Part shown: piece by piece, positions 688 through 32,774 of the stretch
Position numbering within the stretch: the stretch's first letter is position 1
Layout of the letters: the number at the start of each line of letters is the position of its first letter
IMG/VR virus record: IMGVR_UViG_3300009375_000012
Coordinates: 1-33,663 of that record
Reading direction: 5' to 3' (one strand)
Origin: a virus
DNA length: 33,663 bases
Position numbers and translations under genes: made by a program
Notes under the pieces: model-generated
Told to the model about the DNA's origin: nothing
Database searches by the model: none
The model's input: only the letters and a program-made list of their open reading frames with translations

Positions 688-3387
688 ATGAGTTTCATAG
701 TTGATATCATTGAGGACATCGTTGATGTTATCGTTGATGTCGTAGAAGCAGTTGTAGATGCCGTAGTAGGTATTGTAGAAGCTGTTGTTTCAGGAATAGC
801 TGAATTATTAGGTTTTGATACAGAAGACCAGATAATTGAGCAATTCGAAGTCTATAACCAAGCCCTCTTTGATTCCAGTATAGTTGATAGTAAACTATCT
901 AAAAAAGCAGTTAACTCTGCTGTTGTAAACAATATTAGTTTACCTGACCTAGTTATCTATAACGCTATTTGGGGGGAGTCAGTAGCTAAATCTCTTAAAG
1001 ACTTTGTACAGTATATTGATGATGGTCATTACTACACAGGATTCCCTACTGTTGAATCTCATATTAACTATGTAGATGAAAATGAAGTAGCTAATGTATT
1101 AGGCACTAATCATGGAGAACCTTGTACTCTTATAAGTGCTAATTTAGGAAGATTGCCTATTAGTGTATGGGTAGAGTACTGGTTACAAGAAAATAGAAAC
1201 TACAATCCTACCTCACATGCTTTAGGCGATATTTCAAATGTTGTTGTGAATGCTGTTGCTAATTCTAGTAATACAACAGTAAATCAAGTGTTAACTGATT
1301 GGGATATTCAAATTAGTGATTCTTTTAATTTTGCTGAAGATGCGACAGCTGATGCAAGATGGTTTGTAGATTTAGATAATATTACCTACAATACTTCTAC
1401 TGATGACTATACACTTAATCTGTATACAGGAGCATTAACAAGAACATTAGCAAATGAAGTTCCTACTAAACCAGTAGGCTCCCATGTGTATTCTTTTTAC
1501 TATTTAGATAGTAATCCTACACAAACAAAAGTATTTATTTATAAATTAGGAACAGGTACCTATACTAACTTAGATGATATTGAGCCTAATCAGTCTATTT
1601 CATCAAGTGTCCTAAAAACACTACCTGCTGTACCCTTACGCGTAAACAATGTGAATTACACTGGGGGTTCTCATGAAACCCAAATTAATGATTTGCTAGC
1701 TAAATTAAAAATTGATGGCCCAGGAGTACTACAAGGTATCACCAGTGACTATGGTGGTAATATGAATGATTTAGACCATATCTACGTAAACTTTGGAGTA
1801 CGTTTATGGGATACAACTCAGGGTGGTTTAAAGTATTTATTTAGTTTATTTGATAAGTTACACACATCTGCTACTGTAACTGAAGCTGATTACACATCAG
1901 CTACTGGAGAGAAACCTTATAACAATATTATTGTTACTCATGATGATTATAAGTATATCTTTAAGTATGCTTACTCTACTTACAATCACTCTACTTTATC
2001 AGAAGTAAACGCAGATGTTAACTTATCTAACATTTACTACTCTAATTCATCTAAGTTTACTGATAGTAATATATTGATTACCCCTTATTACGCTTCATCT
2101 GCACAGCTGATGTACAAAGTACAGTATCAAGCTGATAACTTAAGTGAAGTAAATGCTTTCTTAGCTGGTAATGGTGTAGCTGCTCCAGGAAGTACTACTA
2201 CAGAAGGACAAGGTAAACTACAAGTAACTGTACGTATTAGTTATTCTGGGACAGTGCAAGATTCTGATGGTGCAGATTCAGGACATACAGTATTAAAACC
2301 TGATTTAGTTTATCAAAACAATGGAGGCACTCTTCAAATTGTACAGTCAGTAGCTGAAGAAACTACACAGTCTCAAGAAATAATATTTTATGAAATTGTG
2401 CCTAATGGTTTAAACTCGTATACTGTTAGAGCACCTATTGCAGGACTGCATGTAAAAGATACGGAATCAGGAGTATTCAAACTAGTTAAGTTTAACTTAG
2501 CTAATAAAGATGATTTAATGCTTCCTTTCTTTTATGGGGCTATTGATAATATTTCAACACATGAATTGTCATCTATGTGGCTAGCTAGTGCACATACCTC
2601 AGTATACTTAGCACATTACGAAGTAATTGAAGCTAGTGGAGGAGGATTCTTTAAATTATTAATAGCTATTATTATTATTGTAGTGATTGCTATTGCAACA
2701 GGATACGTAGATCCTTCTACATGGGGCACAGTAACACAAACTACTGTAACTTCAGGTACAGCTACAAATGGAACGATATTAGTTACTAATTCATTTGGTG
2801 TAGTTACAGAGCAGATTGTAGTAAATGGAGCAGTAACTTCTAGTTCTATTGCTTGGTCTACAACGTTAACTAATGCAGCTATTGGTTTTGTTGAAAATCA
2901 GTTAATCAGTTACGCAATACAAGAAGTGCTAGAGGATGTATCTCCAGAATTAGGTTTTATCTTAGCAGTAGCATTTCAAGCTAACTATGGGTTAGGTAAA
3001 GGTATTGATTATAGTAGTGCTTTATCTGGTCAAGAAATGTTTGATACTGCAAGAATTGTACTAAACTCATACAGTGGTGTACAATCTATTAAACTAAATA
3101 AAGACTTTAAAGCAACAGAAATAGAAAGACAAGGTAATTTACAGCGTATTAAAGATGCATATACTCCTTTAGAAGAACTTGAAGAATCAGTATCTTTTAT
3201 ACATGAGTTAGGAGATAACAAAATGCACTTATCTAATACAGATGTTAGAGGGTATGTAGTTCCAGAGTATCCTGAAATATTCTTCCTTGAAACTTTAGGG
3301 ACAGTACAAATGGCTGAACAAACATATAATTTTAGCTATATAATGGAACAACAATATCAATTTAATGCTTATAGGCAATTAATGTAG
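688..3387 (+). CDS. Large virion protein with hydrophobic N-terminus and internal membrane segment (899 aa)
   Basis: Start chosen at ATG 688, with a strong AGGGAGG at 674-680. Residues 1-42 are an unusual run of Val/Ile alternating with Asp/Glu (repeats of the type IVDVV-EAVVD), followed by FDTEDQIIEQFEVYNQALF; I recall this beginning from structural proteins of N4-like and other marine podoviruses. Residues about 100-640 look beta-rich, with many Thr, Tyr and Asn. A clear membrane-spanning stretch lies at about 654-671 (FFKLLIAIIIIVVIAIAT), then a Thr/Val-rich beta segment and a helical C-terminus. The position, between capsid-side genes and the ejection proteins, suggests a tail or host-envelope-contact protein, or one that inserts into the membrane on ejection. 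No enzyme motif was seen. Confidence 0.75.
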   Translation: MSFIVDIIEDIVDVIVDVVEAVVDAVVGIVEAVVSGIAELLGFDTEDQIIEQFEVYNQALFDSSIVDSKLSKKAVNSAVVNNISLPDLVIYNAIWGESVAKSLKDFVQYIDDGHYYTGFPTVESHINYVDENEVANVLGTNHGEPCTLISANLGRLPISVWVEYWLQENRNYNPTSHALGDISNVVVNAVANSSNTTVNQVLTDWDIQISDSFNFAEDATADARWFVDLDNITYNTSTDDYTLNLYTGALTRTLANEVPTKPVGSHVYSFYYLDSNPTQTKVFIYKLGTGTYTNLDDIEPNQSISSSVLKTLPAVPLRVNNVNYTGGSHETQINDLLAKLKIDGPGVLQGITSDYGGNMNDLDHIYVNFGVRLWDTTQGGLKYLFSLFDKLHTSATVTEADYTSATGEKPYNNIIVTHDDYKYIFKYAYSTYNHSTLSEVNADVNLSNIYYSNSSKFTDSNILITPYYASSAQLMYKVQYQADNLSEVNAFLAGNGVAAPGSTTTEGQGKLQVTVRISYSGTVQDSDGADSGHTVLKPDLVYQNNGGTLQIVQSVAEETTQSQEIIFYEIVPNGLNSYTVRAPIAGLHVKDTESGVFKLVKFNLANKDDLMLPFFYGAIDNISTHELSSMWLASAHTSVYLAHYEVIEASGGGFFKLLIAIIIIVVIAIATGYVDPSTWGTVTQTTVTSGTATNGTILVTNSFGVVTEQIVVNGAVTSSSIAWSTTLTNAAIGFVENQLISYAIQEVLEDVSPELGFILAVAFQANYGLGKGIDYSSALSGQEMFDTARIVLNSYSGVQSIKLNKDFKATEIERQGNLQRIKDAYTPLEELEESVSFIHELGDNKMHLSNTDVRGYVVPEYPEIFFLETLGTVQMAEQTYNFSYIMEQQYQFNAYRQLM

Positions 3388-3396
3388 GAGTTATAA

Positions 3397-3921
3397 ATGA
3401 CTATATATAATAATTTATTAGATGAAGAGACACTAAATAAGATTAGGGCTAATAGTGCTAACTTTGCTAAGAACGTTACGAATGCAGGAATGGTAAATGC
3501 AAACAGCATGCCTATAATGCCTGAGATGCAAGATTGGATGAAAGACTTTAATAGCAATATGGATAATTTCTCAAAGAATATGGATACTTGGGGAGGTAAC
3601 GAACCAGAATCTGGATTATTTGGTTGGGGTACTAAAAACAATTGGGATAACGCTATTGGAGCTATAGGTACTTTAGGTAGTCTTTATGGGCTATCATTAC
3701 GTAAGGATGCATTAGAAGAAACTAAACGTAATAATGCAGCTAATCTTCAGTTAGCTCAAGCTAACTATGGACATAAGTATGATACTATGATCCCTAACTT
3801 CTTAGAAGCACAAGGTAAAGCTACTGCTATCGGTGACTGGGTTGCTACACAAGGTGGTGATTCTAGTAAATTTATGGATATTAAGAATTTAGCTTTACCC
3901 GAAAGAGCGACTTTTTCATAG
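3397..3921 (+). CDS. Small internal virion (ejection-type) protein, gp14-like in position (174 aa)
   Basis: It starts 9 nt after the previous stop. The stop is part of the ribosome binding site (TAGGAG), a pattern repeated at several junctions here. The first 60 residues are Asn/Met-rich and polar. Residues about 78-100 form a Gly/Leu-rich hydrophobic segment (NAIGAIGTLGSLYGLSLRKDALEE), followed by an Ala/Gln/Asn-rich helix. A short protein with one glycine-rich hydrophobic segment directly before the large helical proteins matches the layout of small ejection proteins of podoviruses, which insert in the host membrane during DNA delivery. This assignment rests on context and composition, not on a recognised family motif. 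Confidence 0.65.
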   Translation: MTIYNNLLDEETLNKIRANSANFAKNVTNAGMVNANSMPIMPEMQDWMKDFNSNMDNFSKNMDTWGGNEPESGLFGWGTKNNWDNAIGAIGTLGSLYGLSLRKDALEETKRNNAANLQLAQANYGHKYDTMIPNFLEAQGKATAIGDWVATQGGDSSKFMDIKNLALPERATFS

Positions 3922-3930: not shown

Positions 3931-6144
3931 ATGGCACTTAATTGGCAAGATGTAGCCCAAGTAAGATTTCAAGATACAACACAAGCTGCAAACAGTATGG
4001 CTGATGCCCTATCTAATTTAGGTAGTCCTTTACGTGATGCTATGCAATCTCAAACAGAGCGTGAGCAAGCAGCTATTGATAATGTATACAAGCAACATAC
4101 AGCTAAAGCTCAACAAATGGGTGCTTTAGCTAGTGGTATGAATGCTATGTCTAATTACGCAGACGTACAGCATAAGCTATCTCCTGCATACCTAGAAGCA
4201 CAGAAAGCACAGACAGCAGCTGAATTAGCTAGAGCACAGGCAACACAATCTCAAGCTGACGCAGCACATGAAGCTGCACAAGTTGACGCATTTAATGCAC
4301 GAGTCAAAGTTTGGTATTTAGGTGGTAAACAAGGACCTAGACCTGAGTTTAATGGAACACCCACTACTCCACCTACTCTTGAAGTACCTACTGATACCAA
4401 TACTCCTCCTACTGCACCTTCTACTACAGAAAGTAGCATTATGGCACAAGGAGTAACTACTCCACTAGACTCAGCTATATCTACGTACACTGACGTAAAT
4501 ATGTTCCCTGATTTAAAAGGTATGATGACAGCAGAGAATGATCAATCTAATGTTAACTATATACGTAAGAACTTTAAACCACCTAGTGCAAACGCAAGTA
4601 ATGTAGATTGGTTTAACCATAAGAAAGAGATAAATCAATTTCTTTCAAGTAAAGGTATTACTGATAAAGTAGACCGTAACAGGATTACTGACCAATATTT
4701 AGGTGGGTATGATAGAACAGCACAAGATAGTTTAAATGCTGCTAGAGATACTGATTTATTAGATAATGTTAGAACTGCTGTGTATAGTTCAAATAGTGAA
4801 GATTTTAAACATTTAACTAGAGCTGATTACGCAAAAGTATTAGGACCTGACGAAGGTGGTAAGCAATTTGATGCTAACCAAAATAAGGTATACCAAGAAG
4901 CAGTACAAAGTGCAGGGCAAGTAGCATTTACTCACCCTAATGAAGATAACAAAATTGCACCTAAAAATGTACAGCATCGAAATGCTTATGCTAAATTTAA
5001 ACAATTTTCTTCAAGTATTGCTGAATTACCTAAAGCATCAAGAGAAGCATTAGAGACTCGTTACTTTGCTGAAAATGAAAGTGGAATGGACAAAGCAGAG
5101 ATAACTAGTTTACAGAATGCTCGTACTAGAGATCAAGAAGTGTACACTAAGCAAGTGATGGATACATTTAATGACCCTAATACTAATTTTTCATCAGCTA
5201 ATATGAAAAGCATGTTAGCTAATTTAGTTAAGCATGGGCAGTATGATAGTATTCCTGAAGCTTTCGCAGTAATGGAAGGTAAATTTGTAACTCAAATTGT
5301 TAAGAATATTGAAGAAGCTCATAAAAATCCTGGTGAAACTACGGATCAATTTGCTGATAGAATTATTTCTAGTCAGTTCTTACAAGATGCTATCACAGGG
5401 TATGCTACGGAAATTGGTCTAGGTGAAAAGGGCACTAATTCAATAGTTAACTTAGTAGACACTAAATTAAATGTAGCTAAGAAAGAAAAGAACTACACGG
5501 CTAGATTGGCTAATAGTGAAAAGGCTCTTGCAGATTTTGATGCTTTGATAGAAAAAAGTAAGAAAACCCATAGTGCTGATAATATGAATAAAGCACTATT
5601 AAGTAACTTCATAAGCCAAGGTGGTGAAGGAGATCCTACTGGTGCTCAAGGGCAGTTAGCTGATGTATTTAATAGAGTAATTGGGTATAACCCAGAATTG
5701 GTACATAACCCGCATATATTTTACAAACTTATCCGTAAATACAATCCAGGAGTTGATTTAGATTTAACTGATAGTGCCTCAGACCTTGAAATTGGTAGTA
5801 TGCAAGCTAACCCTGGGCATCTTAAGGATTACTCTATGGAAGGTAATAATAACAATGCAGGTAAAAATACTGACTTATTTGAAAGGATATCAAATACTAA
5901 AAAATTGTATGCTGCAGATGGTGATTTAACAAAAGAAGGTATTGCACTAGCAGAAGAATTATTAATGAATAAGACAGCACCAGGTGTGTTAGCTAAAAAC
6001 AATCTATTCCGTACAGATGAAGAGAAAGAACAAGTTAAGTTACTTAGACTTTTAACTAAATACCAATTAAATAAGCAACAAGACAAGAGAGACCCTTTAA
6101 AGAAAGAAATTAGAGATATACGTAATAAGCTTATTGCTAAATAG
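3931..6144 (+). CDS. Helical internal virion protein (737 aa)
   Basis: ATG follows AGGAG, which overlaps the previous stop (TAGGAG). Residues 1-130 are Ala/Gln-rich and strongly helical or coiled-coil (for example AQKAQTAAELARAQATQSQADAAHEAA). A Pro/Thr linker follows at about 143-168. The remaining 570 residues are mostly helical and soluble, without membrane segments or catalytic motifs. Size, composition and place between a small hydrophobic protein and two very large proteins fit the middle-size internal virion protein of podoviruses (T7 gp15-like by position only). Probable role: part of the ejected assembly that carries DNA and the vRNAP into the cell. No sequence-level homology can be asserted by eye. 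Confidence 0.7.
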   Translation: MALNWQDVAQVRFQDTTQAANSMADALSNLGSPLRDAMQSQTEREQAAIDNVYKQHTAKAQQMGALASGMNAMSNYADVQHKLSPAYLEAQKAQTAAELARAQATQSQADAAHEAAQVDAFNARVKVWYLGGKQGPRPEFNGTPTTPPTLEVPTDTNTPPTAPSTTESSIMAQGVTTPLDSAISTYTDVNMFPDLKGMMTAENDQSNVNYIRKNFKPPSANASNVDWFNHKKEINQFLSSKGITDKVDRNRITDQYLGGYDRTAQDSLNAARDTDLLDNVRTAVYSSNSEDFKHLTRADYAKVLGPDEGGKQFDANQNKVYQEAVQSAGQVAFTHPNEDNKIAPKNVQHRNAYAKFKQFSSSIAELPKASREALETRYFAENESGMDKAEITSLQNARTRDQEVYTKQVMDTFNDPNTNFSSANMKSMLANLVKHGQYDSIPEAFAVMEGKFVTQIVKNIEEAHKNPGETTDQFADRIISSQFLQDAITGYATEIGLGEKGTNSIVNLVDTKLNVAKKEKNYTARLANSEKALADFDALIEKSKKTHSADNMNKALLSNFISQGGEGDPTGAQGQLADVFNRVIGYNPELVHNPHIFYKLIRKYNPGVDLDLTDSASDLEIGSMQANPGHLKDYSMEGNNNNAGKNTDLFERISNTKKLYAADGDLTKEGIALAEELLMNKTAPGVLAKNNLFRTDEEKEQVKLLRLLTKYQLNKQQDKRDPLKKEIRDIRNKLIAK

Positions 6145-6155: not shown

Positions 6156-9100
6156 ATGGGGTTTTTTACTTCAGGTGGTTGGTCTAATGTTGGAACAACA
6201 GGGTTATCTAAAAAAGATACTTTACTAGATTCTTTAATACAAAAGCGTGGTGGCATTGAAAACCTCAAAAGGGTAAAACAAGGGCAGATTGATTACCTAA
6301 GTCAATACGATACTACCCGTGCTACTTTTGATGACTTATCAGGTAAAGGTACTGATTCTGACTCAGGTTATTTTACAACAGATGAAGGTGTTGCATTCGG
6401 AGGACGTGCTCCTACTATTTTAGATGCTCCAGAACACTCTGCATACGCAGGTGAGTCTAGTGTAAGACAATACCAAAAAGAGCATTATGCTAAGTTATGG
6501 GGAGTTCCTGTTGAAGCTGTTACTGATGAGCATATCTATGCTATGGGTAGACAGGCAGATGAAAAGTTCAATGCTTTAGCTTTAGAGGGTCAAGGAACAT
6601 ACGATAAAGATTTAGGCATTGTAGAGCGTTCTGACTATGAAGGTATGGAACCTCAATGGTATCTACCTGAAACAGATGTTACTTATAATCCAGAAGATAC
6701 GAAGTTAGAAGGTACAACTAGAGACAGAGTTAATCTAACAAACCCATTCACAGGTACTAACTTGTACCATGCAATGAATACTCCTGAGTTTAATACTCGA
6801 TGGTTTGAGAATACACCTGAACAAAATCAAATACGTGCTCAGTATGAAACTGAGCATGGTAGTCACTATGGAGACTTTAAAGTTCCTTACTTACATAGTA
6901 ATGTGTACCAAGCAGAAGATGGCACATTCTCTGTATATTCAAGTGATGGTGCTATACATGAGAAGGGGCTTACTGAAACTGAAGTAGAAGATTGGCGTAG
7001 AGAGATTGAGAAGAACCCTAATCCTCTTATTGCTGATAACTGGTCTACAGAAAGAGCAGCACAAGTACTTAAAACAGGCTACACAGGATTAGTAGGTAAT
7101 ATCGAAAGGGCTACAGCAGGAATGCCTAGAACTTTAGATGCAACTGCTGAGTATTCTAGAGGACAACTATTTAAAGCTGAGAATGAAAACTTTAGTGGTG
7201 CTCAAGCAGCAGCACAAAAAGCAGGTAAAACTCCTGAAGACTTCCAAGCATTTATGGATGATATGCGTAAGGTTGCTACTCAAGAAGTAGTAACTGAAGA
7301 GCAGATAGCAGATTTTAAAAAATACTCACTTAACCCTACGTTAGCTCCTGAAGGGTATAAAGACTCTGCTGATTTTAAATTAGTAAACATGTGGAATACT
7401 CGTATTTTAGATAGAAATCTTAAAGATTTATTATCTTTAATGGAATATGAAGAAGAAGCTAAAAAGTTAGACAGAAGAGGCCAGCATGTTAGTAAAGCAC
7501 AGTCTAAAAGAATTGCTGACGACCCTTATGATGGAGGGATGTTTGATTCTATACTCTTCGATATCGCAAATAGAAAAAAAGAATTTGTAGAGACTTTCCT
7601 TGAATCTACTCCACACATGGCTGTAGCTATGATTCCATATGCAGGTGTTCCTACTTTAGCAACACTGAAGCAAGATGATATGGAAATGGCGTATATTGAG
7701 AATTATGGTAAAGCCCCTTCTTCTGAACAAGTAGCATGGATGTGGGGCACCTCTCTTATTGCATCTAGATTAGAGAAACTAAGTGGTGAAGTTCTTGTAG
7801 GTAAATCTAAAGCAGTAAATGAAACCTTAGATTTAATATATAACAAGTTAGCTGCTAAATCCCCTCTATTAGCTAAAGCAATGGCTATACCTGCACGTAT
7901 AGGTTTAAGTGCTACTACTGAATCAGGTAGTGAAATGGGTACCCAATACTTTGAACATATTGGTGCTCAAGATGTAAATAAAAATCTTAGTGCACCTACT
8001 GCTTTTGAAATGAAAGAAGCAGGCATGGCAGGAATGGTAGGTGGTGGTAGTATTGCTACTCCTACATCAATTGGGCAAGAATTATTAAATACTAAGAAGA
8101 AGCGTTTAAATAAGATTCAACAGAAGTTAGATATTCCTGAAACTATTGATGAAACTTCTGCTGTATCACAGGAAGATATACAAGAGGAGCTTAATGATTT
8201 AGATAGTCAAATAGAAGATACTTTGGATAGTTCTACTGGGATACCTCAGAAAGAACGTGCAGCAGCACGTAAAGAGTTATTAGCTCGTAAGAAAGAACTA
8301 AGAGAGTCAACTAAAACTACTCAAGTAACTAATCCTGATGCTCCTTCACCTAAATATAGAAAACAATTAGTAACAGTTGCTATGCAGTTAACTGAAGAAA
8401 TTGAAGCTAAAGAGGCTAAGAAAGCAGAGAAAAAAGCATTACAGAAAGCAAAGCAGAAGAAAGCATTTAAAGGCACAACAGCAGAATACACAGAAGTTTT
8501 AGATAAACTAAATACTACTGAAGAGTTATCTATTGACCAACACCAAGAACTATTAGATGCATTATCTGACAGTGCTAGTGGGTATATTAAAGAATGGACT
8601 GCACTTGATGGTAGTAATCCTGAAGCAGTTGAACAAGCTAAACAAAAAGCTACTGAAGCTATTAAAGAAGTTAAAGCACAGAAAGCTAAATTTGACGCTA
8701 GAGAAGATGTTAACACTACCCAAGAAGACCTTAAAAATACAGAACGTAAGAATGAGTATGTATATAGTTTAGGTAAAACAGAGACTACTGATGTTGATGA
8801 TATTAATGCGTATTTAACAAGTAACTCTGAGACACTTACTTCAGCTGAAATTAGTATCCTAGAAGCTAAGAAAGACGCTATTGCTACTAAACAAAACTTA
8901 GATGTAATGTCTAAGAATTTAGAGAGTGTAAAACAAGATGTACTAGGTAATGAGAATGCTCCTGATGTATCTAAAGATTTCATTTCATTTGAGAAACATA
9001 GACGAAATGTAGAATCAGGTAAAAATAGATTAGGTGCAATAAGTAAGCTTAAGAAATTTGCTACTCATATGCAAGAAAAGGCAAAGCTTTTAAAACAAGC

Positions 9101-9830
9101 ATACGCTAGAGTTGCGGGCAGTGACAGAACAGAAGTAGTTACCTTAGGAAATTCTACATGGACTATCCATACTAATTCAGGTGAGTTTGTAGATTATGTA
9201 GGTCAAGAGGCTGCTTATGGCCAACGTATTGTTGATTTAGTAGATAATATTGCTGAAACTAAATTAAGTAACCCAGAAGCTAGTATCGACACCTCTAAGC
9301 ATCAAAGAGATGTTAATGAGCTACTGACGCAAAAGATATCTAAATTAGAAGATACAGCTCCTAAAGATACTACAAAAGTTGGCGAGTCCGAACAGACGAA
9401 GTCTGTGGAGGGCGAGGCTAAAGATGTAAATGAAATTCTTAAAAGTAAACAAACACAAAAGAAACACGCTTCTGAACCTAAGAAAGTAGACAAAGAAAAC
9501 CAAGTAGATCCTAACGACTTGTTGAAGAGTACTACTAAAGAAATCCCAGCAAAAGATAACAAAGGTGCTGGGACAGAATCTGATACTAAACAAGACCCTA
9601 ATGATTTACTACAAAGTACTTCTACAGTAGAAACAAAAGAAGTAAAATCAACAGAAGAAACTCAAGCACAGGGAGACTTATTTGGGGATTCTACTAATGA
9701 AGTTAAAGATGCTTTTGCTAAAGCAGGAGTACTAACTAAATTAGGTACTGTGTACGCAGAGGGTTCATTAAGTTTAGATCAATGGAAGACAGCAGCTAAA
9801 AAATTAGGAGTATTGCCAGATGGGTGTTAA
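6156..9830 (+). CDS. Giant virion protein (1224 aa), possible detached N-terminal part of the vRNAP
   Basis: ATG follows TAGGAG, which includes the previous stop. Three regions are visible. Residues 1-480 are mixed and soluble. About 490-640 holds mildly hydrophobic, Ala/Gly-rich helices (PHMAVAMIPYAGVPTLATL) and ends in an E-x2-SE-x3-Q pattern (TESGSEMGTQYFE) that I associate with very large ejected phage proteins. From about 660 to the end it is highly charged coiled coil, with a Lys/Ala tract at about 749-772. The tail carries four copies of D-[VP]-N-[ED]-[LI]-L, at residues 1052, 1090, 1118 and 1147. The stop overlaps the vRNAP start by 11 nt. Because the vRNAP lacks the long N-terminal domain of N4 gp50, this protein may provide that function as a separate chain. 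That is an inference. Confidence 0.75.
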   Translation: MGFFTSGGWSNVGTTGLSKKDTLLDSLIQKRGGIENLKRVKQGQIDYLSQYDTTRATFDDLSGKGTDSDSGYFTTDEGVAFGGRAPTILDAPEHSAYAGESSVRQYQKEHYAKLWGVPVEAVTDEHIYAMGRQADEKFNALALEGQGTYDKDLGIVERSDYEGMEPQWYLPETDVTYNPEDTKLEGTTRDRVNLTNPFTGTNLYHAMNTPEFNTRWFENTPEQNQIRAQYETEHGSHYGDFKVPYLHSNVYQAEDGTFSVYSSDGAIHEKGLTETEVEDWRREIEKNPNPLIADNWSTERAAQVLKTGYTGLVGNIERATAGMPRTLDATAEYSRGQLFKAENENFSGAQAAAQKAGKTPEDFQAFMDDMRKVATQEVVTEEQIADFKKYSLNPTLAPEGYKDSADFKLVNMWNTRILDRNLKDLLSLMEYEEEAKKLDRRGQHVSKAQSKRIADDPYDGGMFDSILFDIANRKKEFVETFLESTPHMAVAMIPYAGVPTLATLKQDDMEMAYIENYGKAPSSEQVAWMWGTSLIASRLEKLSGEVLVGKSKAVNETLDLIYNKLAAKSPLLAKAMAIPARIGLSATTESGSEMGTQYFEHIGAQDVNKNLSAPTAFEMKEAGMAGMVGGGSIATPTSIGQELLNTKKKRLNKIQQKLDIPETIDETSAVSQEDIQEELNDLDSQIEDTLDSSTGIPQKERAAARKELLARKKELRESTKTTQVTNPDAPSPKYRKQLVTVAMQLTEEIEAKEAKKAEKKALQKAKQKKAFKGTTAEYTEVLDKLNTTEELSIDQHQELLDALSDSASGYIKEWTALDGSNPEAVEQAKQKATEAIKEVKAQKAKFDAREDVNTTQEDLKNTERKNEYVYSLGKTETTDVDDINAYLTSNSETLTSAEISILEAKKDAIATKQNLDVMSKNLESVKQDVLGNENAPDVSKDFISFEKHRRNVESGKNRLGAISKLKKFATHMQEKAKLLKQAYARVAGSDRTEVVTLGNSTWTIHTNSGEFVDYVGQEAAYGQRIVDLVDNIAETKLSNPEASIDTSKHQRDVNELLTQKISKLEDTAPKDTTKVGESEQTKSVEGEAKDVNEILKSKQTQKKHASEPKKVDKENQVDPNDLLKSTTKEIPAKDNKGAGTESDTKQDPNDLLQSTSTVETKEVKSTEETQAQGDLFGDSTNEVKDAFAKAGVLTKLGTVYAEGSLSLDQWKTAAKKLGVLPDGC
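9381..9416 (+). repeat. GC-rich palindromic element, in frame, inside the 1224-aa gene
   Basis: A perfect 6-bp stem (ACAGAC 9392-9397, GTCTGT 9401-9406) encloses a GAA loop. It is extended by TCC 9387-9389 pairing with GGA 9407-9409 across a two-base bulge, and it is bracketed by direct repeats GGCGAG at 9381-9386 and 9411-9416. The stretch is much more GC-rich than the surrounding coding sequence. It adds about 12 residues (from about 1076) in frame, between the first and second copies of the D-x-N-x-x-L repeat. It could be an inserted palindromic mini-element; the C-GAA-G triloop also resembles a vRNAP-type hairpin. Confidence 0.5.
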
Positions 9831-12800
9831 ATGTACTAAACAGTTAATCAGAGATGCTATTGTTAAACATTACAATACGCAGTTAGAAAATGTTCAAGGT
9901 ACCACTCAGTCTATAATCCAATTTAATAATGCTGTAAATAGTTTAACTGAGTACTTTGATACTTTAGATATACCATCTGACTTATTTAAAGTACACATGC
10001 CAGCAAAAGGTGTGTACTCACCTGTATTACATGCTATAGAGTATTTACATTTTTCTATTGAAGAAGGTAAAGTTCCTTTAGATTTATTTGTAACAGCTAA
10101 TACAGATAAAAAAGTAAATACTTTCCTAGACCCTGCACTATACAATGATAGTAAGAAGTTCACTAGTTTTCTATTAGAACAAGGTTTGGATCCAAAAGTA
10201 GTAACTACTCTAATTAACTTATACGCACCCTTTAGAGCTTCAGTTAATGAAAATTTAGATTTTAAACCTACGCTTTACACAAATAAAGTACTGCCATTAT
10301 TATATGGTGCAAATAAAGTAGGAGAGAACTACAACTTCCATTTACCTCAGCCTATTATATTCAGTATGCTGACTCAATTAGTTAGATGGTATTCCACTGA
10401 TGGACAACGTTCATTAGAAGGTTTTACACAAGACCAAATTGAAGCAATTGTAGATTACGCACCTGGTGAAATTATTCCTTCTGAAGTGTATCAAGCATTT
10501 GAAGGTAAACCTAGTGGTTCATTAAGACATGAATCAGCTATGCAAATAGGTAGTCTTATCTACAAATCTCTTAATATTAAGAGTAACACTCCTGAATATG
10601 GTAAAGACGTAGATTATTTACTTAGGTATAACTTAGGTTTCTTGGCATTAGAAATTGGTAAAAAAGTAGGTATTCTTAACCAGCATGATATTAAATACCA
10701 ACGTGTATCAGCAAACAAAACTACTACTGAGCAGTATAGCTATTATGCTATTAATGATGCACAAGGTATTAATGTTGAGGAAATAAGTAAGGATTCTGAA
10801 AAGTTAGATGATTTTTTTGGAACTGCACAGGATTTTAATACACCTTCATTAACTCCAAATACTAATGAGGTTGTAAAACCTAAAGGCGCAATTGGTAAAG
10901 TAGGTGAAAAAGTACGTGAATTATTTAAACAACTAAATAATACAAAATGGACAGTTAATGATAGCTTTCATTTGTTTATGGTAGGTGCTGACACTGACAA
11001 TGTAGCTCTTAGAAAGAAAGCTGTACTACTACGTCAAAAGCTAGCAGGTATTGTGGATACCACAGATTCTTCGTTATTCCTACATACAGACCTAATTGAT
11101 TCTATTAAAGCTAAGAATGAGCAATTACAGAATGATATTAAGGCTGTTAAGCGCTACTTTGACTCAGGACTTATTCACGAGTTCTATCTAAAATGGCAAA
11201 CACAGAATCAACACAGAATGATGATTCTGTCTGACTTAAACCCACATAGCTCTAAAACAGTACATCGTTTTTTAGTTAGGCCTAAAGCAGCTTCAAGAGT
11301 ATCTATTGACCCTAATAGTAATGACGCTAATGAAATCAGTAAGTTTCATACATTTAAGATAGCAGTAGCTCAACATTTTGATCTAAGTATTGATAAAACA
11401 GATTTAGTAGGTTCTCTTAAACTATATGAGAGTGTTGTTGCTGATTTAGCTGATGAAACATCAGCGTTAAGTAGAGCTGTGTCTGCTACAAGCACTTTAA
11501 AAGATAATGAGGTATCTGAAGAAGCTTTTGTAGATGCTATGTTAGAACTCACAGATAAGTACCCTAAAGGCAATACAGCACTTTTAATTGGTGTTAAAGC
11601 ATTAGCTCAACTAGAAACAGGTACTGCATTTGAAACTGATATTGTATTAGAAGCTGATGCTGTAACCAGTGGTTATTCAATTGGTTTACTACAATTTGCA
11701 TCTAAGAGTGTAGATGTAATGAAGAAAGAGCTTAACCGAGTAGGTTACACTTTTGATGATGATGCAACACCATACTCACAACAAGTACAGAATATTGATG
11801 GAGCAACTCCAGATGGATATCTTAACTTTGCTAATGCTTTATTAGGTAAGTTTGAGAATTTAGGAGAATACACTAGACTATATTCTGAAAATGCTATTAA
11901 AGCTGCAACTACAAAGTTTAATTTATTTAATCATATTTACATGCCTCTAGTTACAAACAGACGTAACACAGGTAAACCTCCATTTATGGTTCTAAATTAC
12001 TCAGGAGGAGTTTTTTCAGTATCTAGAGAGACTGCAGGTTCTTTCCATACAGACTTACTAAAACATATTGGGGCATTACAAAAAGAGTATTCAGCTAAAG
12101 ACACCAGCACTAAACGTAAAGCAGAAATTGTAGTTAGAGTTAGAGAACTATCCGTTAATATTAACAATATTCTTAATTATGAAAAAGCTGCTTACAATAT
12201 CTGGGTTAAACCTGAAGAAGTTAAAGCAGTATTAGATAGTGGCACTCTACATACTATTCCGATGGCTGATTTATCACAGGGTTCAGAAGCTATTGATGAG
12301 ACACTTAAAAAGGCATTAACAGATACATTAGTTCCTGCAATCAAGCAAAGTAAAGAAGAAACTATTGTTAATACCGAAGCTATTGACTATTACACTCAAT
12401 TAGCAGAATTTAGTTTCTTCTTATTTATGCGTAAGTACCAGAATGAAGTACATTCAATGGACGGTAGAACAGAGTACAACTTACTTCCTGGTGACAGAGA
12501 TAGAATAACACAGGAACTTATTAAGTACTTCCCTCGTATTCAATTAAAGCACCACACAGATGAAAAAGGGACTGCGTTTATTGATTTAGTTAAAACTAAA
12601 AAATCACAATCTAAGCGTATTATTGAATTGCCATTTAAAGACGAAAGTCCTCAATTACGTCCAGTAGTTTACACTTATGATGCTGCGGGTGCAGCATCGG
12701 TAGTACGTAGTATTCAAGGATTTGATGCTAGTGCTTTACAGAGTACTTTAATGGACTTAGTTACTAAAGATGGTCAAGTACCTGTTATTCCAATTCATGA

Positions 12801-15800
12801 TGCTATGATTGGAACATCTGAACAGTTATACAAAGGTAAAGATTCATATAATTCACACACTGTAGAACAACAAAAGTTAACTACTCTACTTGGTACGATG
12901 GAATCTCGTTTCTTAGACCATTGGAAAGAACTAACAAAAAAAGAAAAAGCAGAAGTTAATGATGATTTCTTAAAACAAGGACATGTTAACAAAAGTAAAG
13001 ATGCTGCTGATAAAATCAGTATTACAGATGTATTAACTCAGCACCAATCCACATTAAGTGCAGTGACTTATGTACGTCAAGAGTTATTTGAAGAAATTGA
13101 TAAAGGTACTGTAGAGAACATGTATGTGCCTCATGTTGATTTAAATAACACTGAGATTACTAGTGAAGCTTTGCAAGAACAATTAGACGAAGGTAAAGAA
13201 GATTACCAGCACAGTAGTCATTACAAAACACTACATGACCATCAAGAGCTATTTAGAAAATTAGAGTCTCGTTTACAGGCACTGTACCCTAATGTTGAAT
13301 TAACTGCTACTGAAGATTTAGTAGATAAATATGGTAATGAAGTATTAGGTAAAGCAATAGGTGCTGCTGCATACTACTCTAAAGGTAAAGCTGCATTAGA
13401 TACTGTTCCACATGAGTACGCCCATATTTACTTAAATATGCTTGAGCATACGACTGATGTTGATAAGATTATCAAGCGTACCATGAAGCATAATAAAGTA
13501 GATAGAGTAGGAGCTAAAGAAATTCTAGCTACTGCAATGGGAGAACGCTTTACAGATGAAGTATTAGGCAAAGAAGCTAAGATTAAAGTTTCTTTAGCTA
13601 AGCGTATTTGGAAAATAATTAAGAGTATTTTTACTGAGTTATTTGAAAGTACTAGTGCATTTGAACAGCGTATATTAAGTTATGACTTATTTAATGACGG
13701 ACGTGATGAGTATTACAACTTATATGGGGACTTCAAGAAAGGTACTCTTTCAGGAGCTATTAGAACTACTCCTAAGAAAGGTACTCAAAAGCAAGATGTA
13801 GAAACAATCTTACAAGAGAACCCAGAAGGAGCTAAAGTAATTAAGAAGGTACAAGAATTAATACCTAGTGCTTTAGTTACAGGCAGCCTAGCTCTCACTG
13901 CTTTTGGTAATATTTACAGAAAAGGTAAAGGTGCTCTACATGATTTAGATTTCAGAGTAGACGCTAATATATTTAGAGGGGGTACTCTCAAAAAGCTTAT
14001 ACATAGTAATTTTAAAAATTCTGAGATTATCTATAATATAGGTGACCCAAAACGTTCTTTCCAGATGTACACTGTAATAGTACCTCCTGAGAATGTGAAA
14101 GTACAAAATATTAAACGTTACCAAGATAAAAAAGATAGTAGAGTTGTTTACTATGAACTTGTAGATGTTAATAACAACAAGACTGTAGGTACCTATAATG
14201 CAAAAGTAGCAGCTAACCCTGCAAAGCCTAAAGGATCTAGCACAGTTATTGTAGATGAGAGCACAGTAGGTATTAAAGCTACTCTTGTAGATTTTATGGC
14301 TAGTGATACAAGTCTAGAAAATCAAAAAATGCATTTTAGTAGTACACTAGGAGCAGGCATTAGATTTGTACACCCAAGGTCTGTATTTGCAAAGAAGGGT
14401 GAAATAAAGGCATTTGATAGGCCAAGAGCTAAAGATGTCTTAGATTTCAATTTATATGCTCCTACTGAAGTAAATGGCATCACACCTCCAAATATGTTTA
14501 GCAGTGAGTTTGTAGGTAGTAGTTTTAATGAAATGTTAGACGATATGGTTATGTGGCATCAGAATGCTCCAGTAACCCAGCAAGCAACACAGATATTTAA
14601 AGACCTAGGAAGTATTGAGACACACCCTGATAAGGAACACACTAAACATTTACATAAAATTTTACAATCTCTAGTACTAGACCACATCCAGAATGTAGAT
14701 GATGTGTTAGTTGAAACTGGGTTTGTTGAAGGTGCAACAACAGGTGGATTTAGTGAAGATTTACGTAAAGTTGTAGTTCAATTAAATAAGAATACTCCTG
14801 TTACATACGCTGAGCAAGGTGGACAAGAAGTTTATGTACATGAGTTACTACATTCAGTCATTGACCATGTACTAAAAAGTAACCCTCGTTTGAAAGATAA
14901 ACTTAATAAGTTACATAAAGAAGCAATGCCTCACATTAGTGTAAATACTTTCTTAGCTGGGGGTGTTAAATCTAATAGTCAAGCAGAAGTGGAAGTAGCA
15001 CAGAAGCAGTATAAATATGTATCGCAAAATTCTACAGAGTTCTTAATTTATGCTTTAACTAATAAGAATTTAACTAACACACTGAAGAAAGTAAAAGTAG
15101 CCCCTATAAATAAAGCATGGAGCAAAGATGGTACTTTCTTTGATAAGTTAATTCACTTATACAACTATATTAAAGAGCAATTCAATACTCGTGTTAGACA
15201 TAAGAAAATGCCTACAGCTGAGTATGAAAAGTTTTATAACTTTGCACTAGAAGTAGCAACTATCAATGAGACTCATAAACGTAATTTATTACGTCAAGCA
15301 AAAGAGCATCATTTAAGTCAGTTAGTATTTCAATCTAAAGATAAGATAGCTGATTTCATTATAGATGCAGCGCACATTGGTGCACAGAAGTTAGCTGGAG
15401 ATACACCAGTAGGCAATATGCTAAAAAATATTGCAGCGTTACCTCCTTCAATCAAGAAGGCTGCCACTGAAAGAGCTTTTGGTAAGGCTTTTGTTGCTTT
15501 AAGTGAAACTGAGCAAGCACAGACAGTAGCTTTAATGACCAAAGAATTAGTTACTGGTACAGGTTCATTAAGAGCTTCTCAATTAGTATTGAAAGCAAAA
15601 GCTTTAGTTGAATCACAACGTTTCCATAGAGCTAAGAGTATGGCACTAGCTTTACGAAAAGCTGTTAAGAGTAAGAAAGTTACACGTACACAGCAAACAG
15701 CGTTAACTGCTACATTGTTGAAGCCAGATTTACGTGCTCTCTATGATAGTAATAAGTTTACAATTGATGATATTGTAGAGTTGATTAAAGACCCTGCATT

Positions 15801-17961
15801 ACTACAAAAGACAATTCGCCATTATGAATTGCAAGTAGGCACAGCAAATGATACGTTCTATAGATTACAAGTACAAGAATTAGCTAAATTTATGAACAAT
15901 ACAGAAACTAAGAGTTCTTTGCAGGCTCTAAGTGCTCATCGTATGTATCAATTGCACCAACAACTATACAAAAAGGAAGTAGACGTAACTAAAGATGCTT
16001 CAACTATACAAGCTATTGATATTTTAGTTAGTTTAAAAGCATTAAAGTACTCTCCAGAAAAATGGAGAACTTCTACTTTAGAAGTAATTGATAAAGAGTT
16101 TGAAGCAGACCCTACTGATAACTTAGTACATTCTATTATTAAGATGCACTCAGTTACTCATAATGCTGCTAGAAGGGAGCTATTTAATACGGAAGCTCCA
16201 TACTCTATGGTTAAAGGGTATACGCGTTCTAAATACAATCCTGACGTAGATATTATTACAGCTCCTCTTACTGAAGCTAAAGCACTTGCTAAAGAAGGAT
16301 ACGTATTAGAAGAAGAAGTAGGTGAAATCAGAGGAATCACATCTGTTAAGTATGGTGTATTCATTAATAAGTTTAATCCTGAAGCTCCTAGAACAACGGG
16401 TATCGTTTCGTATACTAGTCAACGTTCTAAAGGTACTACAGTATTTGAATTATTATCTAAAGAAGAGAAATACCAAAAGAAAGACCCTATTACAGGGAAT
16501 ATGATTGGAGATCCTAGAAAGATTAAACCTATTATTGATGCATTTATTAAGCAACAAATTACTAAATTAGAAAACGAAGTAATTAGTGGTAAGTTGAACA
16601 AGGAATCTCAATTAGTACCTCTATACGATAAGGATGGGGGTATTTATGATTTCCGTGTAATGATGTCCAGTGCACACCAAGAACGTCTGTTGAAACCAGA
16701 TTCTAGATTTGAAACTGTATTAACTCAAATGGAGATGCATCAGGTAGATAAGAAGAACTCAGCTAGGATTGAGAAAGAAGCAGTTCAATACATGGTAGAT
16801 ACTTTCAATGCTCATTACAAAGATAAGCATGATAAACGTTTCGTTAATCTTTTAGATAAGAAGAACAAAGCAAAATACTTTATATACTTACCTAAATCTA
16901 CACAACAGCGTATTTTAGACAATGCTATTGAAACAAAGGAAGGGCCTGTATTCCCAGTAGTTAAAGAAGAATTACATATTCTCTTTGGATTCAAGGACTT
17001 ACGTCTTATGGATATTCCAGGTATTCAGAAATTACCTGCTTCAGTTAGAAAAGGATTAACTTATATAGAGAAGGCTCTACTTACTTTAACAAGTATAGCA
17101 GTAGGTAATATTATTTTAAAACACCCAGAAGTATTAGCTGATAACATTTTCAGTAACACATTGATGTTAATGGTAAATGGGGTAAACCCAGTTAAAGCTG
17201 TAAAAGGGCAGGTACGTGCAGCACAAGACTTGCGTAGCTTTAAGAGAACAGCAGCTGAGTTAATTGAAACTTATTATAAATTTATGGGAGATCAGCAACA
17301 GAATGCAGATTTAGAAAATAGAATTGTTGCTTTAAGAAGAGAATTGAACGAAAATCCAATTGCAGAATTGATGGATGAACACTTATTTACTTCTATGGTA
17401 GAAGAAATTCACTTAGATGAGTATTCAACTGTGACTACTATGAGTCAGAAAGTGGAAGATACACTCGGTAAGTATCTTCCAGAGTCGTTCATGAAAGCAG
17501 GTAAATTAGCTTACATGAGTAAAACAACAGCTCCTCACAGAGCTGTATTAGAAGTTTTTCAAATGTCAGACTTCTTAGCTAGAGTAGTACTTAATGACCA
17601 TTTAAAGAAAGCACAGCCTAACTTAACTAAAGAAGCTAGGTTAGCTATTCTATACGATACATTTGTACTTTATGATATTCCTGGTGTATCCAGAACAGCA
17701 CATTACATAAATAAATCAGGATTTATTTTATTCTTCCAGTACTGGTATAAGATTCAACGAGCTGTATTTAAAACACTGGGAAGACAGCCTGCTAATGTAA
17801 TGTTACTACTTGGATTGCAGGAATACCTAGATGTAGATGTACCTGATATTTATGATTCAGCTATCATAGGTGGTAATTTTGCTCCTCCTATTGCAGGGCC
17901 AGAGGCCTTGTTCGAAGAAGTGTTTAGATTACCTGGTGTGGATATTGTTACAGAGCTTTAA
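9820..17961 (+). CDS. Virion-encapsidated RNA polymerase (N4 gp50 vRNAP type) fused to two zincin and one nucleotidyltransferase-like domains (2713 aa)
   Basis: Single-subunit (T7-superfamily) RNA polymerase motifs are visible: motif A EADAVTSG with D613; motif B R715-x3-K719-x7-Y727 (RNTGKPPFMVLNY); motif C HD with D994. Spacings A-to-B (102) and B-to-C (267) are close to those I recall for N4 mini-vRNAP (D559, R666/K670/Y678, D951: 107 and 273). A candidate T/DxxGR arginine is R466. Further along are HEYAH 1198-1202 with likely third ligand E1234; GS 1355-1356 with DLD 1375-1377 and possible D1491 (polymerase-beta-like nucleotidyltransferase pattern); and HELLH 1674-1678 with E1740 (STEFLIYA). 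The rest is helical. Role: carried in the capsid, injected, transcribes early genes. AGGAG at 9806-9810 supports the ATG. The protein is shorter than N4's roughly 3500 aa, mainly at the N-terminus. Confidence 0.9.
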   Translation: MGVKCTKQLIRDAIVKHYNTQLENVQGTTQSIIQFNNAVNSLTEYFDTLDIPSDLFKVHMPAKGVYSPVLHAIEYLHFSIEEGKVPLDLFVTANTDKKVNTFLDPALYNDSKKFTSFLLEQGLDPKVVTTLINLYAPFRASVNENLDFKPTLYTNKVLPLLYGANKVGENYNFHLPQPIIFSMLTQLVRWYSTDGQRSLEGFTQDQIEAIVDYAPGEIIPSEVYQAFEGKPSGSLRHESAMQIGSLIYKSLNIKSNTPEYGKDVDYLLRYNLGFLALEIGKKVGILNQHDIKYQRVSANKTTTEQYSYYAINDAQGINVEEISKDSEKLDDFFGTAQDFNTPSLTPNTNEVVKPKGAIGKVGEKVRELFKQLNNTKWTVNDSFHLFMVGADTDNVALRKKAVLLRQKLAGIVDTTDSSLFLHTDLIDSIKAKNEQLQNDIKAVKRYFDSGLIHEFYLKWQTQNQHRMMILSDLNPHSSKTVHRFLVRPKAASRVSIDPNSNDANEISKFHTFKIAVAQHFDLSIDKTDLVGSLKLYESVVADLADETSALSRAVSATSTLKDNEVSEEAFVDAMLELTDKYPKGNTALLIGVKALAQLETGTAFETDIVLEADAVTSGYSIGLLQFASKSVDVMKKELNRVGYTFDDDATPYSQQVQNIDGATPDGYLNFANALLGKFENLGEYTRLYSENAIKAATTKFNLFNHIYMPLVTNRRNTGKPPFMVLNYSGGVFSVSRETAGSFHTDLLKHIGALQKEYSAKDTSTKRKAEIVVRVRELSVNINNILNYEKAAYNIWVKPEEVKAVLDSGTLHTIPMADLSQGSEAIDETLKKALTDTLVPAIKQSKEETIVNTEAIDYYTQLAEFSFFLFMRKYQNEVHSMDGRTEYNLLPGDRDRITQELIKYFPRIQLKHHTDEKGTAFIDLVKTKKSQSKRIIELPFKDESPQLRPVVYTYDAAGAASVVRSIQGFDASALQSTLMDLVTKDGQVPVIPIHDAMIGTSEQLYKGKDSYNSHTVEQQKLTTLLGTMESRFLDHWKELTKKEKAEVNDDFLKQGHVNKSKDAADKISITDVLTQHQSTLSAVTYVRQELFEEIDKGTVENMYVPHVDLNNTEITSEALQEQLDEGKEDYQHSSHYKTLHDHQELFRKLESRLQALYPNVELTATEDLVDKYGNEVLGKAIGAAAYYSKGKAALDTVPHEYAHIYLNMLEHTTDVDKIIKRTMKHNKVDRVGAKEILATAMGERFTDEVLGKEAKIKVSLAKRIWKIIKSIFTELFESTSAFEQRILSYDLFNDGRDEYYNLYGDFKKGTLSGAIRTTPKKGTQKQDVETILQENPEGAKVIKKVQELIPSALVTGSLALTAFGNIYRKGKGALHDLDFRVDANIFRGGTLKKLIHSNFKNSEIIYNIGDPKRSFQMYTVIVPPENVKVQNIKRYQDKKDSRVVYYELVDVNNNKTVGTYNAKVAANPAKPKGSSTVIVDESTVGIKATLVDFMASDTSLENQKMHFSSTLGAGIRFVHPRSVFAKKGEIKAFDRPRAKDVLDFNLYAPTEVNGITPPNMFSSEFVGSSFNEMLDDMVMWHQNAPVTQQATQIFKDLGSIETHPDKEHTKHLHKILQSLVLDHIQNVDDVLVETGFVEGATTGGFSEDLRKVVVQLNKNTPVTYAEQGGQEVYVHELLHSVIDHVLKSNPRLKDKLNKLHKEAMPHISVNTFLAGGVKSNSQAEVEVAQKQYKYVSQNSTEFLIYALTNKNLTNTLKKVKVAPINKAWSKDGTFFDKLIHLYNYIKEQFNTRVRHKKMPTAEYEKFYNFALEVATINETHKRNLLRQAKEHHLSQLVFQSKDKIADFIIDAAHIGAQKLAGDTPVGNMLKNIAALPPSIKKAATERAFGKAFVALSETEQAQTVALMTKELVTGTGSLRASQLVLKAKALVESQRFHRAKSMALALRKAVKSKKVTRTQQTALTATLLKPDLRALYDSNKFTIDDIVELIKDPALLQKTIRHYELQVGTANDTFYRLQVQELAKFMNNTETKSSLQALSAHRMYQLHQQLYKKEVDVTKDASTIQAIDILVSLKALKYSPEKWRTSTLEVIDKEFEADPTDNLVHSIIKMHSVTHNAARRELFNTEAPYSMVKGYTRSKYNPDVDIITAPLTEAKALAKEGYVLEEEVGEIRGITSVKYGVFINKFNPEAPRTTGIVSYTSQRSKGTTVFELLSKEEKYQKKDPITGNMIGDPRKIKPIIDAFIKQQITKLENEVISGKLNKESQLVPLYDKDGGIYDFRVMMSSAHQERLLKPDSRFETVLTQMEMHQVDKKNSARIEKEAVQYMVDTFNAHYKDKHDKRFVNLLDKKNKAKYFIYLPKSTQQRILDNAIETKEGPVFPVVKEELHILFGFKDLRLMDIPGIQKLPASVRKGLTYIEKALLTLTSIAVGNIILKHPEVLADNIFSNTLMLMVNGVNPVKAVKGQVRAAQDLRSFKRTAAELIETYYKFMGDQQQNADLENRIVALRRELNENPIAELMDEHLFTSMVEEIHLDEYSTVTTMSQKVEDTLGKYLPESFMKAGKLAYMSKTTAPHRAVLEVFQMSDFLARVVLNDHLKKAQPNLTKEARLAILYDTFVLYDIPGVSRTAHYINKSGFILFFQYWYKIQRAVFKTLGRQPANVMLLLGLQEYLDVDVPDIYDSAIIGGNFAPPIAGPEALFEEVFRLPGVDIVTEL
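12679..12698. other. Perfect 8-bp inverted repeat with GGGT loop inside the vRNAP gene
   Basis: GATGCTGC (12679-12686) and GCAGCATC (12691-12698) flank the loop GGGT. The site lies within the polymerase region, ahead of motif C, in codons for DAAGAAS. It is GC-rich for this gene. It may be only a by-product of Ala/Gly codons; a similar hairpin with GGAT loop occurs at 27283-27302. Confidence 0.4.
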
Positions 17962-19646: not shown

Positions 19647-19665
19647 GAGGGTACGGAGTACCCTC
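19647..19665 (-). promoter_or_regulatory. Candidate vRNAP promoter: 8-bp stem, GGA loop, upstream of SSB
   Basis: GAGGGTAC (19647-19654), loop GGA (19655-19657), GTACCCTC (19658-19665): a perfect stem with a three-base, purine-centred loop closed by C-G. N4 vRNAP promoters have this shape on the template strand; the P2 promoter as I recall it has a GGA loop closed by C-G. With the loop on the + strand as template, transcription runs leftward into SSB. By the N4 rule (loop centre = -11), +1 is near 19645. The core is shared with 32760-32774. Confidence 0.55.
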
Positions 19666-32562: not shown

Positions 32563-32741
32563 GACGGCTCCTCGTAAAGTAATTGTTTAATTGTAATAAG
32601 TAACTCATCTATTTGGTCTTCTTGAATTAATGTTGCATTAAATGTTAATTGCAGTATGTCTTCAGAGAGTTCTTCTACTTTATAGACGAGTTGATTTTCA
32701 GAATCTAATACTTTAAATTCTGTTTGGTTTTCTTCTAGCAT
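32553..32741 (-). CDS. Small acidic protein (62 aa)
   Basis: ATG 32741 has an ideal AAGGAG (32753-32748). The protein is acidic with alternating hydrophobics (MLEENQTEFKVLDSENQLVYKVEELSEDILQLTFNATL), suggesting a small beta-rich or mixed fold, and it overlaps the next gene by 10 nt. It is the first gene after the triloop hairpin at 32760-32774. If that is a vRNAP promoter, the message would start about 15 nt before this ATG and this would be the first gene of the MoxR-VWA-polymerase transcript. Function unknown. Confidence 0.65.
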   Translation of the reverse strand: MLEENQTEFKVLDSENQLVYKVEELSEDILQLTFNATLIQEDQIDELLITIKQLLYEEPSCD

Positions 32742-32759: not shown

Positions 32760-32774
32760 AGGAACGGAGTTCCT
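32760..32774 (-). promoter_or_regulatory. Candidate vRNAP promoter: 6-bp stem, GGA loop
   Basis: AGGAAC (32760-32765), loop GGA (32766-32768), GTTCCT (32769-32774). The shape is that of N4 early promoters, with the purine-centred loop on the + strand, so transcription would run leftward; loop centre 32767 predicts +1 at about 32756, immediately before AAGGAG and ATG 32741. The core GG-W-AC-GGA-GT-W-CC is shared with the hairpin at 19647-19665. No T-tract follows, so a terminator is less likely. Confidence 0.55.

Follow-up and report, generated by a model that had tools for sequence, protein, structure and literature searches.

What does a phage gain from an RNA polymerase that carries several further enzymes in the same chain? 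This question is raised by the open reading frame (ORF) at 9820-17961, on the plus strand of the virus record IMGVR_UViG_3300009375_000012, of which we analyzed positions 1 to 33,663 (33,663 nucleotides, hereafter the window). The frame is open over 2713 codons (2713 residues), and its homology supports well the conclusion that it encodes the polymerase and C-terminal portions of a virion RNA polymerase (vRNAP) of N4 type (Schitoviridae). The explanation that we favor as a whole, with a probability of about 0.6, is a two-part N4-type vRNAP with an inserted effector cassette, i.e., a zincin metallopeptidase with the motif HEYAH and a nucleotidyltransferase (NTase)-like domain. The overall anatomy of the locus (the two-part vRNAP, the domain order, and the cassette), as read from sequence homology, appears close to certain.

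The 2713-residue chain was matched by the PHROG virion-RNA-polymerase family phrog_2206 (E = 5e-194) and by 374 phage records, each with less than 60% identity, the vRNAP of Vibrio phage vB_VhaP_PG11 (hereafter PG11) being the top row. From these records 20 named schitoviruses were chosen by hand for spread, not at random, and the vRNAPs of 12 of them were used to build profiles. Hidden Markov models (HMMs) built without the window protein matched the polymerase (F_POL, E = 6e-59) and the C2 domain (F_C2, E = 2e-117), where E-values from our scripts, here and below, refer to small sequence sets. The profiles recovered the polymerase, a zincin slot, and C2 in that order. The T7-like RNA polymerase (RNAP) domain occupies 10150..13071 on the plus strand (residues about 111-1084), as placed by F_POL and alignments, and has intact motifs A, B, and C. 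D613, R715/K719/Y727, and D994 aligned with D1556, R1663, K1667, Y1675, and D1948 of N4 in both a 5- and a 13-sequence alignment, with motif A approximately 940 residues nearer the chain start than in N4. An N4-type vRNAP with these three motifs is what a sequence-only reading of the window had proposed; the ORF, its strand and length, and each residue it named were found where it had put them. Database-wide scans of the chain returned unrelated sub-threshold matches only from Pfam (whole protein, E ≤ 10), sub-threshold matches only from NCBIfam, and no match from phmmer against PDB. Rfam gave no match.

The order along the chain is RNAP, HEYAH zincin, NTase-like domain, a second zincin with the motif HELLH that is the family's own, and C2 with the stop (15118..17961, plus strand; residues 1767-2713). 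For N4 vRNAP, sections 5, 6, 7, and 11 of a preprint (PMC12633501) describe flexible linkers, an inhibitory C-terminal domain (CTD), and a short linker between RNAP and CTD. The HEYAH zincin and the NTase-like domain fill the site of this short linker plus the first zincin of N4.

The same architecture was found in a second phage, represented by two contigs (those behind L076 and L063; 56,645 and 54,351 bases) with the gene order of the window. Its chain of 2707 residues is 45.3% identical to that of the window (1208 of 2666 aligned positions), with the same split, the same 11-nt overlap, and the same domain order, and all 18 of the named or equivalent key residues are conserved. Identity is 43.2% for RNAP, 49.1% for HEYAH, 39.5% for the NTase-like domain, 58.3% for the HELLH zincin, and 48.0% for C2. 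A third lineage comprises two contigs (L103 and L104) that are 94% identical to each other and ~26% identical to the window chain; both have RNAP, HEYAH, NTase, HELLH-type zincin, and C2 in the same order within one ORF of at least 4600 residues and retain the zincin and NTase motifs. Relatives obtained from the two alignment-based scans of viral contigs are among the matches listed. Given that HMMs built without the window protein match the chain, that 18 of 18 residues are kept at 45.3% identity, and that a lineage at ~26% keeps the zincin and NTase sites, the similarity is not due to chance.

The vRNAP N-terminal domain (NTD) is, judging from homology, encoded by a separate adjacent gene that overlaps the RNAP-CTD chain, and the sequence-only reading overlooked that this upstream ORF is the detached NTD. 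The gene (6156..9830, plus strand) encodes 1224 residues. Together with its second-phage counterpart it matched the NTD profile of the 12 schitoviruses with an hhalign probability of 96.6 (score 92.3), compared with probabilities of at most 1.0 in 14 control pairings; hhalign E-values appeared uncalibrated, and probability and score are quoted instead. By phmmer, residues 401-680 matched the NTD of D474 (2.8e-8), the only strong match among 18 vRNAPs. The two genes overlap by 11 nt (9820..9830, plus strand), and a Shine-Dalgarno-like AGGAG (9806..9810, plus strand), retained in the second phage, lies 9 nt before the vRNAP ATG. As the third lineage encodes the whole in a single long ORF, the HEYAH and NTase cassette probably predates the split of the NTD.

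A different division was found in L023 (2-16034), in which the vRNAP is distributed over an RNAP gene, a gene for an 1883-residue polyvalent protein with three zincin-like modules, and a CTD gene. The RNAP and polyvalent genes overlap at 6439, and the cut falls exactly at the RNAP/CTD linker (the PHROG match ends at position 2042 and resumes at 2341). The 1883-residue product holds a HEYAH zincin 41% identical to that of the window. Two side observations concern the region before the polymerase: L044 (1043-12301) encodes a vRNAP of ~3750 residues in which a further HExxH zincin separates the NTD from the RNAP, and L043 has a zincin-profile match in the same interval, without HExxH.

The sequence-only reading had described two metallopeptidase domains in the chain. 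Both are present, with HEYAH at 1198-1202 followed by E1234, and HELLH at 1674-1678 followed by E1740; motif, conservation, and models whose best structural rows are zincins support their assignment as zincins. The second, though, is not an addition. Between RNAP and C2, the vRNAPs of schitoviruses carry a tandem pair of zincin-like slots, and an HMM of the second slot (F_MP2) built without the window protein matched the HELLH module (E = 1.9e-16), which spans 14650..15117 on the plus strand (residues 1611-1766). Among the 20 named schitoviruses, an intact HExxH was found in the first slot only in 13 (including N4), in the second only in six, in both in one (PG11), and in neither in none. HELLH as an extra domain was therefore rejected on the basis of the alignment, the F_MP2 match, and the 20-phage survey. 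The HExxH and Glu of this slot are retained in the second phage and in L103/L104. Homology between the two slots rests mainly on HMMER cross-hits, hhalign giving a probability of only 5.9 with a score of 60.9 (27 or less in the other pairings). One alignment (A4) was discarded, as its second-slot rows fell on the first slot. Separately, the start of C2 in N4 would be a degenerate zincin.

The HEYAH module (13189..13689, plus strand; residues 1124-1290) is an inserted zincin of a polyvalent type. Relatives with 26-42% identity occur in 17 further large phage ORFs, of which 16 are distinct when L023 is counted; none of the 17 matches the RNAP or C2 profile. In an alignment of 17 rows of the module the H, E, and H of the motif are invariant, and the third-ligand Glu is present in at least 90%. 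The N4-type first-slot profile does not match the module, and homology between HEYAH and the N4 zincin, which was considered, was not demonstrated, only 13 columns matching in the profile comparison. The HEYAH part of the first AlphaFold2 (AF2) model has a predicted local distance difference test score (pLDDT) of 64-93 per ten-residue block, and the first 13 VIA rows for it (Z 7.4-6.3, where Z < 8 can be chance) include PPEP-3 (7.4), IrrE/PprI (7.2), and lethal factor (6.8). For the HELLH model, lethal factor and PPEP-3 fill rows 1-11 (Z 8.0-5.7; next row 4.7), the best being lethal factor (Z 8.0, root-mean-square deviation 4.2 over 152 residues), with PPEP-3 at 6.3.

Between the two zincins lies the inserted Pol-beta-like NTase domain (13825..14499, plus strand; residues 1336-1560), with GS at 1355-1356 and DLD at 1375-1377. 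Neither a single-sequence scan of viral contigs nor a strict NTase DNA pattern recovered anything beyond the three sister contigs; a relaxed pattern added 19 loci (L061-L079). Of the resulting 20 sequences, 13 were kept in alignment A7 after near-duplicates (L069, L073, L074, L076, L079) and truncated sequences (L077, L078) were dropped. The columns without variation across these 13 distinct sequences are G-S-L-A-L, G, R, H-D, D, a later D, K, R, K-D, and D, giving a family signature of GS, DxD, D, and RxKDxxD. An HMM of 11 members, excluding the window phage and the second phage, matched the chain at 1320-1569 (E = 2.2e-14). GS...DxD with a third Asp and a distal basic/acidic helix is what we take to be the signature of the Pol-beta superfamily, and AbiEii and minimal Pol-beta NTases presumably share with the window domain the GS...DxD, the third Asp, and a C-terminal helix of RxKDxxD type.

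The HEYAH-zincin HMM (E < 1e-3) matched 12 of the 19 NTase ORFs, two of them from the second phage. The other ten represent six distinct proteins without an RNAP or C2 HMM match, which makes the NTase and a HEYAH-family zincin a recurring pair. By these sequence comparisons, the NTase domain falls in a so far uncatalogued family found in giant phage proteins, where a HEYAH-family zincin usually accompanies it. The three enzyme modules of the chain (HEYAH, NTase, and HELLH) are not of the same origin.

Searches for catalogued relatives of the NTase domain gave little. Pfam AbiEii (PF08843) matched one of the 13 members at E = 0.2 (12.0 bits, gathering cut-off 22.5). In all, eight Pfam families matched one or two A7 members each, the best being Astro_capsid_p2 (0.0031, on two), which was taken as chance, and one unnamed PHROGs family matched one member (E = 0.0043). 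The A7 profile found no plausible relative in PDB (two matches, E = 0.21 and 1.4). A PHROGs scan of five NTase-bearing ORFs had no match, and AbiEii and NTP_transf_2 gave no signal in the window record. Searching 50,697 phage records by tblastn with the HEYAH/NTase stretch yielded one weak match in the HEYAH region and none to the NTase; the NTase had no match in plasmids, and a genome-contig scan with alignment A2 found no relative. The VIA rows for the NTase part listed no Pol-beta enzyme, which excludes nothing. The inserted domain is probably an NTase with an unproven Pol-beta fold, since its motifs are invariant yet neither AF2 model resolves it and no credible PDB sequence match was found. 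The NTase-like domain named by the sequence-only reading stands as an independent family with invariant catalytic motifs and lacks the structural side (low pLDDT) as well as a Pfam, PHROGs, or PDB NTase match above cut-off. As a side observation, the sole genome-contig match to the NTase DNA pattern (L088, 5222-5292) comes from a 6.1-kb contig that bears the label of an archaeon metagenome-assembled genome and is possibly viral.

The early promoters of N4 are hairpins whose triloop requires a 5' G, a 3' A, and a C:G closing pair, according to the relevant part of PMC4496689, and our scan required C-GNA-G on a perfect stem of at least 5. In N4 as control, the rule gave exactly three matches in the first 12 kb, each on the template strand, and these precede gp1, gp2, and gp15. 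In the window, a hairpin with an 8-bp stem and a GGA triloop (19647..19665, plus strand) is upstream of the minus-strand SSB gene. It gains weight from a counterpart at the same place, with the same core stem, upstream of the second-phage SSB homologue (L086 19068; SSB 65.7% identical). A second, with a 6-bp stem and a GGA triloop (32760..32774, plus strand), is 18 nt upstream of a minus-strand ORF starting at 32741 and is weak alone.

The T7-like RNAPII gene is present in all three sister contigs and in the second phage. Near this gene, the early region of a sister contig (~4 kb) has three rule-obeying hairpins on the template strand of minus-strand genes, and that of the second phage has four, one sharing the GTGGAC-GGA-GTCCAC core; hairpins so oriented lie at L093 4460, 7326, and 7719 and at L094 4296, 7499, 7920, and 8158. 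Over the five stretches scanned, 13 hairpins were on one strand and 3 on the other, compared with shuffle means of 0-0.63 per stretch and strand (eight shuffles each). These early-region hairpins are candidate N4-type promoters. A hairpin with an ACAGAC...GTCTGT stem was also observed within the NTD gene of both phages (window 9398, L086 8989; triloop GAA or GCA).

Taken together, the favored reading would work as follows. The NTD product and the RNAP-CTD chain would both be packaged and ejected with the DNA, as N4 homology and gene order suggest, and by analogy with N4 the NTD would sit in the membrane and the RNAP would start early transcription at single-stranded hairpin promoters. The HEYAH and NTase pair would most likely be an effector cassette riding in with the polymerase. 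Early in infection, a protein or tRNA of the host (or phage) could receive a nucleotide from the NTase, and the zincins may process the chain into its working parts, cleave a host protein, or both. We lean slightly towards the cassette being a catalytically active effector. More tentative, and in our judgment somewhat short of even odds, is the fuller proposal that the injected RNAP is a delivery vehicle for an unrecognised phage NTase family, the NTase and zincin cassette in the RNAP/CTD linker modifying host proteins or tRNA while the chain starts early transcription and the NTD anchor works in trans.

Several points weigh against this reading. Support for the NTase and zincin cassette consists of sequence and models, and joint packaging of the split NTD is assumed from N4. 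No NTase family of Pfam, PHROGs, or PDB was matched above cut-off, and the NTase region mostly has low pLDDT in both AF2 models (model means 54.6 and 53.3). Seven of the 19 NTase ORFs show no HEYAH-family zincin, several of the seven being truncated. Foldseek alone found no match for the HEYAH model in PDB at E ≤ 0.001, and, as the profile comparison of HEYAH with the N4 zincin is not significant beyond the 13 columns, N4 is no functional guide to HEYAH. An uncertain alignment shows no conservation in the chain of K114, R119, and W129, the residues with which N4 contacts its promoter, and their counterparts could not be traced. Rule-obeying hairpins also occur at a background of ~1 per 8 kb (13 in 108 kb of four other schitoviruses), so that single hairpins outside the early region mean little, and two lie at 20-60 kb in N4. 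The five in the window are no denser than this background and some are intragenic (2620, 9398, 30722), indicating that not every match is a promoter.

The alternative that survives best, though we consider it unlikely, is self-processing rather than attack on the host: the HEYAH zincin, perhaps with the HELLH zincin, would cut the ejected chain at the RNAP/CTD linker and free the polymerase from an inhibitory CTD, and the NTase would modify the phage's own parts. The cassette is located in the very linker where cleavage would release the RNAP, the N4 CTD inhibits transcription (section 7 of preprint PMC12633501), L023 separates the same modules at the gene level, and autoproteolysis is one of two roles discussed for such metallopeptidases in the relevant portion of PMC5512222. 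However, full-length recombinant N4 vRNAP, which has a HExxH zincin, was purified without evidence of degradation, as stated in a section of PMC12633501, and the NTase is left unexplained.

Still less probable is a non-catalytic role for the NTase-like domain, which would then sense a nucleotide or bind nucleic acid and so gate transcription or ejection. It lies beside the RNAP, in a type of chain whose CTD is a regulator of the polymerase in N4, and it has no known substrate; but its putative metal-binding Asp residues do not vary among the 13 family members, each of the three vRNAP lineages retains them, and the same domain occurs in giant proteins without RNAP. That the cassette is decaying, functionless passenger DNA left by recombination we regard as very improbable. 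The HEYAH and NTase homologues in large proteins without RNAP or C2 matches do indicate that the modules are mobile, but the open frame, the order, and the active-site motifs are kept in three lineages from 45% to ~26% identity, and in the second phage the cassette (NTase 39.5%, HEYAH 49.1%) is about as well preserved as the RNAP domain (43.2%). Hardly credible, finally, is an assembly or sequencing frameshift as the source of the NTD split, for although a single indel could join the frames and L103 and L104 do have one long ORF, the junction is identical in all three sister contigs and the 11-nt overlap with its AGGAG recurs in a phage only 45% identical.

Upstream of the NTD gene, three plus-strand genes continue the N4-like order. 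The first (688..3387; 899 residues) is a gp53-like homologue, matched by phrog_2220 (E = 7.7e-46) and, using phmmer, related to the N4 gp53-like gene of PG11 (3.5e-6). It is followed by a gp52-like gene (3397..3921; 174 residues), assigned from position and size only by comparison with the gene order of N4 and relatives, with no sequence match, and a gp51-like gene (3931..6144; 737 residues), assigned from position in the gene order only, with no convincing sequence match. Their products are 24.6%, 33%, and 24.9% identical, respectively, to those of the second phage. Elsewhere, sister contig L001 loses its column-by-column match from window position ~21329, suggesting an indel or variable region beside the replication genes.

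This lineage is a natural experiment in which the NTD is encoded as a separate protein and the RNAP/CTD linker tolerates whole enzymes, and in which, as in 20 of the 20 named relatives examined, an intact site persists in one of the two zincin slots. A phage NTase family that no Pfam or PHROGs NTase model matched is brought to light as well, with exact target residues for mutation. Because related phages keep the layout, the polymerase may deliver enzymes into the host besides transcribing early genes.

Fusions of zincins to N4-type RNAPs are already known. Iyer et al. (2017), in the relevant part of PMC5512222, reported N4-type RNAPs fused to one or more zincins and also to lysozyme, PBECR1, or ART, and a passage of a 2021 review (PMC8472413) notes that PPEP-2 matches the zincin of a Pectobacterium phage vRNAP; the preprint PMC12633501 likewise describes a zincin on such a polymerase. 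We found no published precedent among open-licence papers for a vRNAP bearing an NTase, for the conserved cassette, or for a split vRNAP. The likeness to polyvalent proteins that the sequence-only reading had drawn is right and, for N4 RNAPs, had already been published in PMC5512222. As in the polyvalent proteins of phages and conjugative elements described there, i.e., transferred multidomain proteins with zincins, several enzymatic domains were found in one chain, and their transfer would be with the DNA; compared with the portion of that account considered here, both a phage vRNAP and further giant proteins of phages contain the NTase-like domain.

Compared with known enzymes, the two zincins resemble PPEP, lethal factor, and IrrE in having HExxH with a downstream Glu and in the best structural rows of both models, at 9-15% identity and middling Z (5.7-8.0) in those rows, and the match to AbiEii (PF08843) is sub-threshold only. 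The chain is like those of other schitoviruses in having at least one zincin after the RNAP, as do all 20 named members examined, and like that of PG11, which has both slots intact. Unlike the window, the PG11 vRNAP has no NTase and no HEYAH module, and its NTD is in the same chain. The locus shares with coliphage N4 gp50 the RNAP motifs, C2, a zincin-like CTD, the gene order, hairpin promoters (as candidates here), and the NTD module. It differs from gp50 in that the NTD is in a separate overlapping gene, that a HEYAH zincin of another type and the NTase are found where N4 has its own HExxH zincin (2228), and that it keeps an intact second zincin slot where that of N4 is degenerate.
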